Source: Amycolatopsis alkalitolerans
Lineage (GTDB): Bacteria > Actinomycetota > Actinomycetes > Mycobacteriales > Pseudonocardiaceae
Length of the DNA: 64,000 nucleotides
Reading direction: 5' to 3'
Assembly (NCBI RefSeq): GCF_006152065.1
Contig: NZ_VDFW01000001.1
Span: forward strand, 310,001-374,000
The notes beneath the pieces are model-generated. The model saw only the letters and a list, made by a program, of their open reading frames with translations, was not told where the DNA came from and ran no database searches. Shown piece by piece: positions 51,900 through 58,266 of this stretch (the first letter of the stretch is position 1; every line of letters starts with the position of its first letter). The position numbers and the translations under genes were made by a program.

Positions 51900-54623
51900 G
51901 TGACCGCTTCTGCTGAGCCTCTGTACGGGGCCGATGACCTCACACATCTCGAGGGACTGGAAGCCGTTCGGAAGCGACCCGGTATGTACATCGGGTCCAC
52001 CGACAGCCGCGGGATCAACCACCTCTTCACCGAGATCGTGGACAACTCGACCGATGAAGGTGTCGCGGGTCACGCCGGCCGCGTCGTGGTGACGCTGCAC
52101 GCCGACGGCAGCGTCCAGGTCGATGACGACGGCCGCGGTATCCCCACCGACAAGCACGCCAAGTCCGGGCTGTCCGGGGTCGAACTGGTGCTCACCCGGC
52201 TGCACGCGGGCGGCAAGTTCGGCGGTTCCGGCTACAAGACTTCGGGCGGCCTGCACGGCGTCGGCGCGTCGGCGGTCAACGCGCTGTCGCACCGCTTCGA
52301 CGTTGCGGTCAGGCAGCGCGGCAAGGTGTACGAGATGTCCTTCGCGCACGGTGTGCCCGGTGTGTTCGACGGTCCGGGCCCGAAGGCGAAGTTCACGCCG
52401 CAGCCGGGCCTGCGCGTCGCGGGCCGGATGAAGCGCGGTGAGCGCACCGGCACGTCGATCCGGTACTGGTACGACTCCCGTTACTTCGAGACCGGCGCGA
52501 AGCTCGACACCGAGGCCGTGCGCGCCAAACTGCGGAACACCGCGTTCCTCGTGCCGGGTGTCACGTACGTGCTGCGCTCCGCGACCGAGGACACGATCAG
52601 CGAGGAGACCTTCTCGTACCCGAACGGCCTGCGGGACATGGTCGACTTCCTGACCCCGGACGGTGACAAACCGGTCTCCGGCACGCTGATGATCACCGGC
52701 GAGGGCACATACAAGGAGAACGCCGCCGACCAGAACGGCGTGATGAAGTCCAATGTGGAGCGCCGGGCCGAGGTCGAGGTCGCGCTGCGGTGGAGCACCG
52801 GTTACGAGCGCACGGTCGAGTGCTTCACCAACACCATCCGCAACGTGCACGGCGGCACGCACCGCCGCGGTTTCGACCGCGGCTCGCTGAAAGCCTTGCA
52901 GGAGGCCATCTCCAAGACCCGCGGGCTGCTCAAGCCCAAGGAGGAGCTGCCCACTGTGGACGATGTGCTGGAGGGGATGACCGCGGTCATCCACGTCCGC
53001 ATCCCGGAGCCGCAGTTCACCTCGCAGACCAAGGACGAGCTGTCCACGACCGGGATCACGCGGGTCATCCAGGGCGTCGTGGAGAAGCAGCTCAAGGCCT
53101 GGACGGAGGAGCGCAGGACCAAGGCGGAGGCCAAGGTCGTGCTGCAGAAGGTGGTCGACGCCGCGCGCGTGCGGCTCACCCAGAAGCAGCAGAAGGATGC
53201 CGCCCGCCGCAAGACGGCGCTCGAGGGCGCGGCGATGCCGCCCAAGCTGGTCGACTGCCGCACGACAGGCGTTTCGCGCAGTGAGATCTTTCTCGTGGAG
53301 GGGGATTCGGCCCTCGGGTGTTTCGTCGGTGACACGCGGGTCGCACTGGCTTTCGGGCAGAGCAAGTCGTTCGCCGAGCTTGCAGCGGATTGGGTGCAGG
53401 GCATCGGCCACTTCGGCTACGCGACCAGCAAGGCGGGCCGGGTCGTGGTGGTCCCGCTGGTCGCGCCCAGGCTGACGAAGCGCGGCGCACCGCTGGTGCG
53501 GGTGACTTTCGGCAACGGTGAGTCGGTCCGCTGCACCCCGGACCACCGGTTCCGGCTTCGCGACGGTTCCTACCGGCGAGCCGACGAGTTGGCCCCGGAC
53601 GATTCGCTGATGTCGCTCCACCGATCCGTCTCGGCGAAGGCCGGCGCCACGGCGAACGGCGAGTGGCACGGCTCCCTGAGCGATGGGGACCGCTCGAAGA
53701 GGCAGTGGCAGGGCGAGCGGCTCGCGACGGTGCTGGACGTCCCCGATGGCGAACTCGCTGAGGCATCCGGGACCTTGCGCTCGCGCACCGCAAGGACGGG
53801 GCCGGGGTTCGATCGCCTGCTGGTGCGCCACGGCGGAGACTTCGGGGGCTTTCGTGAGCCCACCGGCATGGTCGATCACCGGGTGGCCGCTGTGGACGCT
53901 CTGGCGGAAACGGCCGACGTCTACGACCTGACGGTGGAGGGCTACCACAATTTCGCGCTCGAAGCCGGCGTCTTCGTCCACAACAGCGCCCGGATGGCGC
54001 GAGTCTCGGAGTATCAGGCACTCCTGCCGTTGCGCGGCAAGATCCTCAATGTGCAGAAGGCATCACTGGGTGACACGTTGAAGAACGCGGAGATCGCCTC
54101 GATCGTGCAGGTGCTGGGCGCGGGCTCCGGCCGCACCTTCGACCTGTCGACGATGCGGTACGGCCGGGTCATCCTGATGGCCGACGCGGATGTCGACGGT
54201 TCGCATATCCGCACCCTGCTGATCACGCTGTTCGCCCGGTACATGCGCCCGGTCATCGAGGACGGGCGGCTGTACGCGGCGATGCCGCCGTTGCACAAGG
54301 TCACCGCCAAGGGCCGGAGCCCGGAGACGTACTTCACCTTCACCGAACGGGAGATGGAGGCGAAGGTCGCCGAGCTACGGGAGGCGGGCAAGCAGGTCGT
54401 CACGCCCGTGCCGCGCTTCAAGGGGCTCGGCGAGATGGACGCGGACGAGTTGTGGGAGACCACGATGAACCCGGCCACCCGCTCGGTCCGCCGCATCACC
54501 CTCGACGACGTGGAAGCCGCGGACGCCGCGCTCGAACTGCTCATGGGCGAGAAGGTCGAACCGCGGCGCAACTGGCTGGTCGAATCCTCCGCGCGGGTCG
54601 ACCAGGCCGCGATCGACATCTAG
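51900..54623 (+). CDS. parE: DNA topoisomerase IV subunit B-like, intein-containing precursor
   Basis: A GTG at 51900, after GGGAGAAAGA, gives a 907-residue precursor; without the intein the enzyme is 685 residues. The GHKL ATPase region shows EIVDNSTDEGVAG, DDDGRGIPTD and GLHGVGASAVNAL. The Toprim domain shows FLVEGDSALG, then MADADVDGSHIRTLL. SEYQALLPLRGKILNVQKAS follows the intein. The intein sits directly after EGDSALG, in the metal-binding heart of Toprim, so activity depends on splicing. The gene is 13 bases upstream of parC. It could also be called gyrB2, since actinobacteria usually carry a separate gyrBA near the origin. Confidence 0.93.
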   Translation: MTASAEPLYGADDLTHLEGLEAVRKRPGMYIGSTDSRGINHLFTEIVDNSTDEGVAGHAGRVVVTLHADGSVQVDDDGRGIPTDKHAKSGLSGVELVLTRLHAGGKFGGSGYKTSGGLHGVGASAVNALSHRFDVAVRQRGKVYEMSFAHGVPGVFDGPGPKAKFTPQPGLRVAGRMKRGERTGTSIRYWYDSRYFETGAKLDTEAVRAKLRNTAFLVPGVTYVLRSATEDTISEETFSYPNGLRDMVDFLTPDGDKPVSGTLMITGEGTYKENAADQNGVMKSNVERRAEVEVALRWSTGYERTVECFTNTIRNVHGGTHRRGFDRGSLKALQEAISKTRGLLKPKEELPTVDDVLEGMTAVIHVRIPEPQFTSQTKDELSTTGITRVIQGVVEKQLKAWTEERRTKAEAKVVLQKVVDAARVRLTQKQQKDAARRKTALEGAAMPPKLVDCRTTGVSRSEIFLVEGDSALGCFVGDTRVALAFGQSKSFAELAADWVQGIGHFGYATSKAGRVVVVPLVAPRLTKRGAPLVRVTFGNGESVRCTPDHRFRLRDGSYRRADELAPDDSLMSLHRSVSAKAGATANGEWHGSLSDGDRSKRQWQGERLATVLDVPDGELAEASGTLRSRTARTGPGFDRLLVRHGGDFGGFREPTGMVDHRVAAVDALAETADVYDLTVEGYHNFALEAGVFVHNSARMARVSEYQALLPLRGKILNVQKASLGDTLKNAEIASIVQVLGAGSGRTFDLSTMRYGRVILMADADVDGSHIRTLLITLFARYMRPVIEDGRLYAAMPPLHKVTAKGRSPETYFTFTEREMEAKVAELREAGKQVVTPVPRFKGLGEMDADELWETTMNPATRSVRRITLDDVEAADAALELLMGEKVEPRRNWLVESSARVDQAAIDI
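53319..53984 (+). mobile_element. Mini-intein in ParE (222 residues, no endonuclease domain)
   Basis: Precursor residues 474-695. Block A is CFVGDTRV (Cys1). Block B is VRCTPDHRFRL with the TxxH motif. Block F is DVYDLTVEGYHNFAL, and block G ends FVHN, followed by Ser+1. The length and lack of LAGLIDADG motifs show a mini-intein. Flanking host codons on both sides are atypical (ACA, GTT, AGT, TTT, GAT before; CGA, TAT, GCA after). Confidence 0.93.
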
Positions 54624-54636
54624 GAGTACCTGAACC

Positions 54637-57600
54637 ATGGCCAGGCGCAAGACCCCCACGACGCGCGTCGATCCCAGCGCGTTCGACAACGCGGGCGCGA
54701 ACGTCTTCGACAACCCGGTGAAGACCGAGATGGAGGACTCGTACCTGGAGTACGCGTACTCGGTCATCCACTCGCGGGCGCTGCCCGACGCGCGCGACGG
54801 TCTCAAGCCGGTGCACCGCCGGATCCTGTACTCGATGAGCGAAAGCGGTTACCGGCCGAACCACGCGTACGTGAAGTGCTCGCGCGTGGTCGGTGACGTG
54901 ATGGGCCGCTACCACCCGCACGGCGACAGCGCGATCTACGACGCGATGGTCCGCCTGGCGCAGGACTTCTCGATGAACGCCCCGCTGGTCGACGGGCATG
55001 GCAACTTCGGTAGCCCAGATGATGGACCGGCAGCATCGCGGTACTGCGTCATCGGAGACACGCGCATCCGGCTGGCTGACGGATCGAGCCCACGTATTGC
55101 CGATGTGGTGAACCTGCCTGCCGACTCCGAGGCCGACGCCGACTTCGAAGTCCTCGACAAGGACGGGAAGCCGGTCCATGTGTCGAAGGTGTTCAACTCG
55201 GGCGTCCATCCGACGATCCGCATGACCACCAAGTCGGGTTTCTCGTTGCGCGGCAGTCAGAACCACCTCGTCCTCTGCCTGGAGGCACCGCTCGGCGTGC
55301 CGCTCTTCCAATGGCGGCGGCTCGACGAGGTGAAGTCGGGTGCAGTGGTGTGCATCGCTCGTAACGCCTGGATGCAGGTCGTTCCGACCGCCCGGGAGTA
55401 CATGGTCGGCGTGCTCGCGGGCGCCGGGGTCTCCGAAGGCTTGGATGTCCAGGAGTTCAGCGGCGGCACGGATGCCCTCCGGGCGAGCCCGCTCGCCGAA
55501 TGTGCCGGCCATCAGGCCCGGGACAAAGTCGTGCCGGAGTTCATCTGGAACGGCACTTGGGGAGTCAAGCGCGCGTTCCTGATGGCTGCCTTCGAAGGTG
55601 ATGGCGGCTGCCGTGTCGCCCTTGACGGCTTCACGATCCAATACAGCAGCTACAGTGAACGGCTCGCCTGGGAACTCCAGGAACTGCTCGCCGAGTTCGG
55701 CGTGATCGCCACGCACCGGCAATACACCCGCCCCAACGGCTCGGTCGAGCATCGGCTCGTGGTGTCGGGGCTGCGTAACGTCCGCGCCTTCGCCGAGCGC
55801 GTCGGGTTCCTCAAGACCAAGCAGGCCAAGCTGCAGGAGTTGCTCAAGCGCTCCGGCCTGAGGCCGCACCGCCTCAGCGGTGACCGGGTGCCGTTCGTCG
55901 CCGACTACGTCCGCGGTGCGCTCGACTTCGACCGCCGGGGCAGCGGCCGGAAATGGTTGACCCAGCACAACTTCGATCGCATCGAGCGGTGGGAGACCGA
56001 GCGGCTGCGCATCATCGACCACATCGAGGACACCGAGGTGCTGGCGACGATCCTGCCGGTCATGGACTCGGGCTACCGGTTCGAGGAAGTGACCGAGGTC
56101 GCCGCGGCCGAACCTGCCGAGGTCTACTCGGTCCGGGTCGATTCCGACGATCACTCGTTCCTCGCCGGCGGTTTCGTCAACCACAACACCGAGGCGCGTA
56201 TGTCGCCCGAGGCGATGCTCCTCGTGGGCGAACTCGGCGAGGACACCGTCGACTTCCGGCCGAACTACGACGGTTCGCTGCAGGAGCCGTCGGTGCTGCC
56301 GGCGGCGTACCCGAACCTGCTGGTCAACGGCACGTCCGGGATCGCGGTCGGGATGGCGACCAACATGATCCCGCACAACATGGGCGAGGTCATCGGGGCC
56401 GCGCGGTGGCTCATCAACCACCCGGCCGCGAGCCTCGACAAGCTGATGGAGTTCGTGCCCGGTCCCGACCTGCCGACCGGCGGCCTGTTGCTGGGCCTCG
56501 ACGAGGTCCGCAAGGCGTACGAGACCGGCCGCGGCGTGGTCCGCATGCGCGCGAAGGTCGAGATCGGCCCGCTGGAGGGCAGCCGGGGCCGCCAGGCCAT
56601 CACGGTCACCGAACTGCCCTACGGCGTCGGGCCGGAGAAGGTGATCGAGAAGATCACCGACGAGGTCAACAAGTCCAAGCGGCTCACCGGGATCGCGGAC
56701 GTCAAGGACCTCACCGACCGCGAGAACGGCACCCGCCTGGTCATCGAGTGCAAGGTCGGGGTGAACCCGCAACCGCTGCTCGCGGACCTGTACCGGCTGA
56801 CGCCGCTGGAGCAGTCCTTCGGTATCAACAACCTGGTGCTCGTCGAAGGGCAGCCGCGGACGCTCGGGTTCAAGCAGTTGCTGGAGGTCTTCCTCTCGCA
56901 CCGCTACGAGGTCGTCACGCGGCGGACCCGGTACCGGCGGCGCAAACGCGAGGAGCGGTTGCACCTGGTCGAGGGTCTGCTGATCGCGCTGCTGGACATC
57001 GACAAGGTGATCCGGCTGATCCGCAACAGCGAGAACGCGCAGGAGGCCAAAGACGGCCTGATGAAGCGCTTCAAGCTGTCCGAGATCCAAGCGACGTACA
57101 TTTTGGACACCCCGCTGCGGCGGCTGACCAAGTACGACAAGCTGGAACTGGAAGAGGAACAGGACAGGCTGCGCGACGAGATCGCCGAGCTGACCAAGAT
57201 CCTCGAGGACGACCGGGAGCTCAAGCGGGTCGTCTCGGCCGAGCTGGCCAAGATCGCCAAGGAGTTCCGCACCGAACGGCGCACCGCGCTGATCGACGGG
57301 GATCTCAAAGAGGTGCTCGCGGCCTCGCAGCCGGCGGGCCCGCGCGAGGTCGCGGACGACCCGTGCCAGGTGATCCTCTCGGCCACCGGGCTGGTCGCGC
57401 GCTCGGCCGCCGAGTCCGAGGAGGCCCCGGAGGGCCGCCTTCGCCACGGGCGCGTCAAACACGACGCGGTCGCGGCCCTCGTGCACTCGACGGCACGAGG
57501 CCAGGTCCTGCTGATCTCGAACCGCGGGCGGGCGTTCAAGATCGACGTGCTCCCGTTGCCCGTGCTGCCGGAACAGGCGGGCACGGTGTCGATGCGCGGT

Positions 57601-58266
57601 GGGATGGCCGCGCGTGAACTGGCGCCGCTGGACAACGGCGAGAAGGTCATCGGGATCGCCCCGCTCGGCGAGCAGGCGGCCGATTCGCCCGGGGTCGCGC
57701 TGGGTACCCGCCAGGGCGTGGTGAAGGTGTGCGCGCCCGAATGGCCGGTGCGAGCGGACGAGTTCGAGATCATCAGCCTCAAGGACGGCGACGAGCTGGT
57801 CGGCGCCACCTGGCTGACCAACCGGAACGAGACGCTCGCGTTCGTCACGTCGGACGCGTCGCTGCTGAGGTTGTCCGTGTCGCTCGTGCGCCCGCAGGGG
57901 CTCAAGAGCGCCGGCATGGCGGGGATCAAGCTCGTGCCGGACTCGCACGTGGTGTTCTTCGGCGCGGTCCGCACGGACGATCAGGAACACGGTGAGCCGA
58001 TGGTCGTGACGGCGACCGGGCAGACGGTGAAGACGACCCCGTTCGCCGAATACCCGGCGAAGGGCCGCGCGACGTCAGGCGTGCGTGCGCACCGGTTCCT
58101 CAAGGGTGAGCACGCGGTGACGGTGGCGTGGATCGGTCCGCGACCGGCGGGTTCGGCTCGCAACGGGGATCCGGTGGAGCTGCCCGAGCCGACCGTCCGC
58201 CGCGACGGGTCCGGTGCCGCTCATCCGGGGCCGGATGTCGTCGGTCACCTCATCGAGCGCGGATGA
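54637..58266 (+). CDS. parC: DNA topoisomerase IV subunit A-like, intein-containing precursor
   Basis: A 1209-residue precursor; 828 residues remain after splicing. The breakage-reunion domain shows [41 protein letters not shown] and SRY with the catalytic Tyr at residue 136. TEARMSPEA resumes after the intein. A long coiled coil (for example [20 protein letters not shown]) and a beta-pinwheel C-terminal domain follow. A canonical gyrase GyrA-box was not seen, favouring topoisomerase IV over gyrase. The intein separates the catalytic Tyr from the next residue, so splicing is essential. Confidence 0.93.
55045..56187 (+). mobile_element. Large intein in ParC with degenerate LAGLIDADG endonuclease (381 residues)
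   Basis: Precursor residues 137-517, between Tyr136 and Thr518, the same site used by mycobacterial GyrA inteins. Block A is [13 protein letters not shown], block [11 protein letters not shown], block [16 protein letters not shown] and block G FVNHN. A DOD-type endonuclease core lies between: [10 protein letters not shown] and [10 protein letters not shown] are its two helices, but the first has GAG where catalytic GDG is expected. Splicing residues look intact; cutting activity is doubtful. Confidence 0.92.

Follow-up and report, generated by a model that had tools for sequence, protein, structure and literature searches.

Topoisomerase inteins seated at catalytic sites have been reported before (PMC5874633), and a GyrB mini-intein has been described in Desulfonema (PMC6390638). 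Neighbouring inteins that must both splice are known from DnaB of M. smegmatis and from haloarchaeal MCM (MCM-a/MCM-d), where double inteins likewise exceed expectation (PMC10643990). Those doubles lie within one protein, whereas the case described here involves two adjacent genes, two subunits and two endonuclease types. It is found in a 64,000-nucleotide stretch of the genome of the soil actinomycete Amycolatopsis alkalitolerans (the window; part of contig C1 of the 6.78 Mb genome), where the topoisomerase genes parE and parC adjoin on the plus strand and each forms a single open frame with an in-frame insert, an intein, at its active site. Each intein is of a known kind and occupies a known site, and together they extend the double-intein situation to two subunits. 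In the literature searched, neither a ParE-ParC pair with an intein in each protein nor a gyrase with inteins in its two subunits is described, which is weak evidence of absence, most subscription papers lying outside that search. Our analysis indicates that the pair very probably represents selfish elements that build up in a single operon and stay there because splicing is required.

The junctions can be read directly from the sequence as EGDSALG/CFVGD...FVHN/SARM in ParE and AASRY136/CVIGD...VNHN/TEARM in ParC (slashes mark the splice points). In both proteins, Pfam and NCBIfam profiles place topoisomerase domains on the flanks and intein domains inside: Intein_splicing matches ParE (E 2.7e-15) and ParC (E 7.4e-6, below the curated cut-off), LAGLIDADG_3 matches ParC (E 5e-13), and intein_Nterm is above cut-off in both and intein_Cterm in ParE. 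The ParC insert also matches the solved Mxe GyrA intein (1am2) with an E value of 4.6e-26. The intein boundaries are secure because many relatives carry parE and parC uninterrupted at exactly these codons, and the same empty sites rule out the inserts as chance open reading frames. An earlier note on this DNA had placed inteins after EGDSALG and after the catalytic Tyr136, which the junctions, domains and empty relatives confirm; the span it gave, 53319..56187, opens at base one of the ParE intein and closes at the final base of the ParC intein. By ParE, the closest named relatives belong to Amycolatopsis, e.g., Amycolatopsis sp. GM8, A. bartoniae and A. sacchari. Elsewhere, on another contig, a second GyrB-type and GyrA-type gene adjoin; their frames, 660 and 849 aa, are too short for inteins. 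The window's pair, additional to gyrBA in a genome with two GyrB-family matches, fits topoisomerase IV, and its parE would supply the GyrB-type subunit of a second type IIA enzyme. The coordinates are collected in Table 1.

Table 1. Features of the parE-parC locus and its inteins (positions within the window)
Feature	Position	Strand	Description and basis
parE, intein included	51900..54623	+	907 aa, inferred GTG start; open reading frame and domain matches
ParE intein	53319..53984	+	222 aa, after EGDSALG, +1 Ser; domain matches and empty sites in relatives
Cys72 of ParE intein	53532..53534	+	34/34 copies
Putative remnant of lost HNH-like endonuclease region, ParE intein residues 102-186	53622..53876	+	No HNH core; weaker selection than splicing domain
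ParE C-extein, junction and ParC N-extein	53985..55044	+	Stretch of 1,060 nt separating the occupied insertion points
parC, intein included	54637..58266	+	GyrA-type subunit, 1209 aa; separate gyrA elsewhere in genome
Empty third intein site in parC (VVGD87/V88MGRY)	54886..54912, insertion point 54897/54898	+	Comparison with relatives
ParC intein	55045..56187	+	381 aa, after catalytic Tyr136, +1 Thr; Mxe GyrA intein homologue
Cys78 of ParC intein	55276..55278	+	34/34 copies
First LAGLIDADG motif of ParC intein (LAGAGVSEG)	55414..55440	+	48-aa deletion directly after, relative to 429-aa relatives
Second LAGLIDADG motif of ParC intein	55576..55605	+	Motif and domain match

A comparison of insertion sites, which the earlier note had proposed, identifies these as the usual GyrB-type and GyrA-type intein sites: the ParE intein follows the EGDSAxG motif of GyrB-site inteins, and the ParC intein follows the catalytic tyrosine and is homologous to Mxe GyrA. 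In other genomes, drawn from 396 sampled across the phylum, an intein fills the GyrA-type site in 16 of the 17 regions retrieved for ParC-intein matches (17 of 42 matching genomes were taken), including same-order genomes, and the GyrB-type site in three of the six retrieved for ParE-intein matches (all six were taken), the gyrA/gyrB labels of these regions resting on motifs and the neighbouring gene. The seventeenth region (L298 4574-8342, genome G410) is a broken frame in a GyrA-type gene, with an intein region running over several frames with stops at a locus that has masked bases; this could be an assembly error or a decayed intein. Both sites are occupied outside the phylum as well, in gyrA of Staphylococcus phage AH12 (L301 3650-7204; insertion at the catalytic tyrosine as in ParC, about 25% identity with a ParC-intein relative) and in gyrB of a Bernardetia plasmid (insertion after EGDSAGG, +1 Ser; 36% identical over 80% of a ParE-intein relative). 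Because both sites are used elsewhere and topoisomerase inteins have already been placed at catalytic sites, active-site placement of these inteins is the rule.

The ParC intein thus resembles the mycobacterial GyrA allele represented by Mxe GyrA in its splicing domain, insertion site and +1 Thr, and differs from it in that the host gene is parC, a gyrA paralogue, and that a decayed LAGLIDADG domain is still present. The counterpart of the ParE intein is the GyrB intein allele of the Ssp GyrB type, from which it differs in having parE as host and in the apparent loss of its endonuclease in the window. The ParE intein also matches the NCBIfam profile RtcB_rel_intein2 (E 2.4e-34, the basis of the RtcB naming), and a profile of the ParE intein picks up an HNH-bearing intein of an RtcB-like protein, with a different host gene and site. 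An intein related to the ParE intein, with an HNH-like motif, occurs in an RtcB-like protein of another genome (L284 1491-3905, G576), and the ParE-type HNH intein lineage appears to occur in more than one host gene. Phages and plasmids were considered and rejected as carriers: the phage matches listed are 24-38% identical and none of the 39 / 75 phage records for the parE/parC inteins reaches 60%, while plasmids gave one distant match for the parE intein and none for the parC intein.

Full-length relatives carry different endonuclease types at the two sites, HNH-like in ParE and LAGLIDADG in ParC. The full-length ParE inteins (480-486 aa; 23/34) resemble HNH inteins, with a weak HNH_3 (Pfam) match in two of them, under the cut-off at E 0.003 and 0.015. 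Of the 34 ParE inteins, 22 show an HNH core pattern (as RHHVDVDKRNNDPRNL). The nine shortest (158-303 aa) are all without it, among them the window's copy, which therefore lacks the HNH endonuclease core of a GyrB-site HNH intein. At the other site, the full-length ParC inteins (428-429 aa; 25/34) all have the second LAGLIDADG motif, and 19 of the 25 have the first by the pattern used. The window's ParC intein retains both motifs but is missing 48 aa right after the first in comparison with the 429-aa relatives, and its LAGLIDADG endonuclease is thus incomplete. We judge both endonucleases of the strain to be degraded, and homing of both window inteins is most likely dead, leaving them immobile.

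All 34 ParE and all 34 ParC inteins keep the residues of a class 1 intein, namely Cys1, the His of block B, the terminal His-Asn and a Ser or Thr at +1; block B of the ParC intein has Ser in place of Thr in all 34 copies. Ratios of nonsynonymous to synonymous divergence (dN/dS) between the window and three relatives (L033, L035 and L036) are 0.15-0.31 for the ParE splicing domain and 0.05-0.10 for that of ParC, indicating purifying selection, while the middle or endonuclease region lies above its own splicing domain each time (0.17-0.34, with one value of 1.04 on 10 codons). In structural modelling, the ParE intein shows a Hint fold, is confident mostly at residues 1-101 and 185-222 and matches solved inteins (Foldseek E 5e-8); the predicted local distance difference test score (pLDDT) is mostly below 50 at residues 102-184. 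The ParC model is poor (mean pLDDT 64) and still matches inteins, including LAGLIDADG inteins, by fold, and Mxe GyrA by sequence. Both inteins are predicted to splice, each precursor excising its own intein by what would be ordinary class 1 splicing, and the insertion points support the earlier suggestion that one enzyme, interrupted in each half of its active site, would require two independent splicing events.

The distribution of the two inteins was examined in the family, where this kind of ParE occurs in 186 of 297 sampled genomes (E <= 1e-100). The set of 157 unique ParE loci drew on 120 fetched regions, on 80 named loci and on the window itself; the 120 were a non-random choice among 185 matches outside the window, mostly high-ranking ones and made with knowledge of frame lengths. 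One locus that ends before parC (L128) was left out, giving 156 with parC adjacent, among which L055, L061, L124, L164 and L168 are uninterrupted at the Tyr site; L061 and L124 are unscored at a third site described below, so that 154 loci enter the three-site counts and the tree. Both inteins are present in 16 of the 156 loci, only the ParE intein in 17, only the Tyr-site ParC intein in 18 and neither in 105 (odds ratio 5.5, p 1e-4). On the 154-locus extein tree, with rates assumed equal across the tree, the corrected Akaike information criterion (AICc) is 308.7 for a model in which gain at one site depends on the other, 318.0 for independence and 315.3 for independence with one-step double gains and losses. 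The likelihood ratio (LR) of 13.6 was reached by none of 80 simulations under independence, and the observed odds ratio by 0.05% of 2000 (P 0.0005). The association is therefore supported, whereas the bare number of doubles is unexceptional. Double occupancy, called unusual in the earlier note, is uncommon but recurrent, at 16 of 156 parE-parC loci and, as gyrB-gyrA doubles, in three of 39 genomes of a distant family.

In that distant actinomycetote family, three genomes (L281, L282 and L283 in G566, G512 and G459) have inteins at the homologous codons of both a GyrB-type and a GyrA-type gene, with GyrB-type/GyrA-type insert lengths of 435/420, 349/420 and 195/421 aa. Among the 39 genomes searched, the GyrB-type site is occupied in these three and the GyrA-type intein is present in the same three plus G437 (p 4e-4); several of the set are drafts or otherwise incomplete, and weak matches in three further genomes, with their hosts, lie outside the count. 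The GyrA-type gene of G437 (L288) has two inserts, one at the Tyr site (420 aa) and one at the third site, beside an uninterrupted gyrB.

The third site lies in ParC after VVGD, 49 residues before the tyrosine, and is occupied in 40 of 154 loci, e.g., L084 3907-5202 (-) and L104 4300-4689 (+), with the pattern VVGD/C...HN/CMGKYHPHGD. By site, 80 loci have no intein, 23 the third only, 14 the Tyr-site only and 10 the parE only; 10 combine parE and Tyr site (including the window), seven parE and third, four third and Tyr, and six hold all three inteins. Third-site inteins are 129-436 aa long, begin with Cys and end with His-Asn in 40/40, and a 432-aa copy matches LAGLIDADG_3 (E 1.9e-12). The next host residue is Cys in all 40 occupied genes; at the 114 empty sites it is Val in 86, Thr in 17 and Cys in 11, the window showing Val88 and no insert. 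A third-site carrier is often among the four nearest relatives, by ParE, of the 11 empty-Cys alleles. The Cys at an empty site is perhaps the scar of a lost intein; equally possible is that the Cys came first and the intein later. Pairwise dependence of the third site is weak, with an AICc gain of 3.5 with parE and 2.7 with the Tyr site. A broader proposal, on balance doubtful, is that type IIA topoisomerase operons act as a recurrent three-site intein trap. One GyrB/ParE-site (HNH-like) and two GyrA/ParC-site (LAGLIDADG) inteins might promote one another's acquisition, two- and three-intein alleles might build up separately in parE-parC and gyrB-gyrA until both subunits depended on splicing, and the third element might rewrite the host's next residue to Cys, a codon scar of past loss.

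Patchy occupancy and decaying endonucleases are consistent with selfish elements that are retained through the splicing requirement. Two distinct homing inteins would be aimed at the codons that type IIA topoisomerases conserve best in their active sites, and both of them, the GyrB-site intein, HNH-like in full-length relatives, and the GyrA-site LAGLIDADG intein, sit in the adjacent parE and parC. With degraded endonucleases they would now most likely be immobile, persisting as the topoisomerase works only after splicing. Across relatives, an intein at one site is associated with gain at the other; the simplest reason would be a stepwise invasion of a locus that was already being exchanged. 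Several observations weigh against this account. At least 16 doubles arise in 8.9% of simulations under independence (mean 9.8, sd 4.0, P 0.089); the direction of dependence differs between the 154-locus fit and a 117-locus fit and is untrustworthy; and an unlinked control, the intein of a radical-SAM protein, gave an LR of 7.2 with the third site, so that the dependence test is not fully specific. In addition, intein distances correlate beyond those of the exteins only when degraded copies are included, a segment-neighbour test for recent co-conversion between the sites in the 16 doubles gave no signal at its resolution (occupancy alike in 4/16 versus 3-6/16 elsewhere), and the ParC intein of the window, which retains both LAGLIDADG acids, may have residual activity.

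The window's genome contains two more inteins, one in RecA (L235, 364 aa) and one in the radical-SAM protein (L234, 265 aa, after HSCVY); the RecA intein is matched in 16 of 297 family genomes and the radical-SAM intein or a relative in 138 of 297.

Some lineages may simply take up more DNA or more inteins than others, which would make the association a by-product of host permissiveness. The third-site dependence of the radical-SAM intein points this way, as do the assumption of equal rates in the tree models and the tendency of RecA and parE inteins to co-occur (odds ratio 8.6, p 0.06), although RecA inteins are present in just 4 of 116 genomes, too few to judge. Across 117 genomes, however, the radical-SAM control reached an LR of only 2.7 with the parE site and 0.3 with the parC Tyr site versus 12.3 for the pair itself, and we give permissiveness a real but clearly less than even chance of being the explanation.

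The pair might also move as a unit, the break-repair tract of one endonuclease carrying the other intein over about 1 kb, so that the parE intein can lose its endonuclease. Such co-homing would be consistent with the short distance between the two sites in the window, with the tree-based association and with the greater shortening of ParE inteins in doubles (8/16 versus 2/17 of parE-only loci, p 0.026, the cut-off having been set post hoc and kinship and the third site unconsidered); four doubles combine a shortened ParE with a full ParC intein, and none shows the reverse. Shortened ParC inteins occur in 4/16 doubles and 5/18 parC-only loci (kinship uncorrected, cut-off post hoc). The difference weakens when ParE inteins without the HNH core (<=303 aa) are counted, at 6/16 versus 2/17 (p 0.12), and the one-step double-gain model is 2.7 AICc units better than independence but 6.6 worse than the stepwise one. 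Correlated intein trees were rejected as a sign of co-transfer: the partial Mantel r of 0.71 (p 0.001) over the 16 doubles falls to 0.27 (p 0.15) in a set of 11 and to 0.06 (p 0.43) where both inteins are full-length (eight doubles), a rate effect of degraded copies, and the neighbour test above likewise speaks against joint movement. Work on the neighbouring MCM inteins of haloarchaea found that co-homing suffers when both endonucleases are active and that doubles readily invade single-intein alleles; it asks how often an intein lacking an endonuclease homes by means of its neighbour's, and leaves hitch-hiking of a mini-intein as a question (PMC10643990). Taken together, we regard co-homing as unlikely, and step-by-step invasion gives the best fit to the data. 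Synonymous divergence between the window and L035/L036 is 0.66-0.92 for the splicing domains, above the 0.27-0.54 of the exteins, and in the comparison with L033 the two are similar. The pattern fits separate intein histories in part of the clade, to be read with caution as the values are near saturation and third-position GC is slightly lower in the inteins (0.86 versus 0.90-0.93). L034 (Amycolatopsis sp. GM8), which groups with the window and L033 (support 0.97), has neither intein.

Very improbable, finally, is the stress switch proposed in the earlier note, a regulatory double lock in which oxidation (or zinc or heat) stops splicing of one or both inteins and holds the topoisomerase off: conditional splicing through a disulfide on the catalytic cysteine is described for M. 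smegmatis DnaBi1, but just one of the two DnaB inteins there is redox-sensitive (PMC6195587), and what supports the switch here is limited to one strictly conserved cysteine besides Cys1 in each intein, of which Cys72 is a possible redox partner of Cys1, whereas these cysteines are equally kept in single-intein alleles, that of ParC also appears in the Mxe GyrA alignment, the 105 loci with neither intein do without any lock, and comparison of the 34 copies per site found no feature specific to double alleles. The conserved cysteines would permit a redox effect, with no sign of selection for it in the double strains, and a switch function, unproven, is not favoured over selfish accumulation.

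Empty, single, double and triple alleles, in full-length and mini form, at three fixed sites and with distinguishable endonucleases, form a natural series that allows us to ask whether neighbouring inteins help or hinder each other. The cysteine at the third site, including its 11 empty alleles, may provide a rare visible mark of intein loss. In strains such as this one, both subunits of one enzyme would depend on protein splicing.

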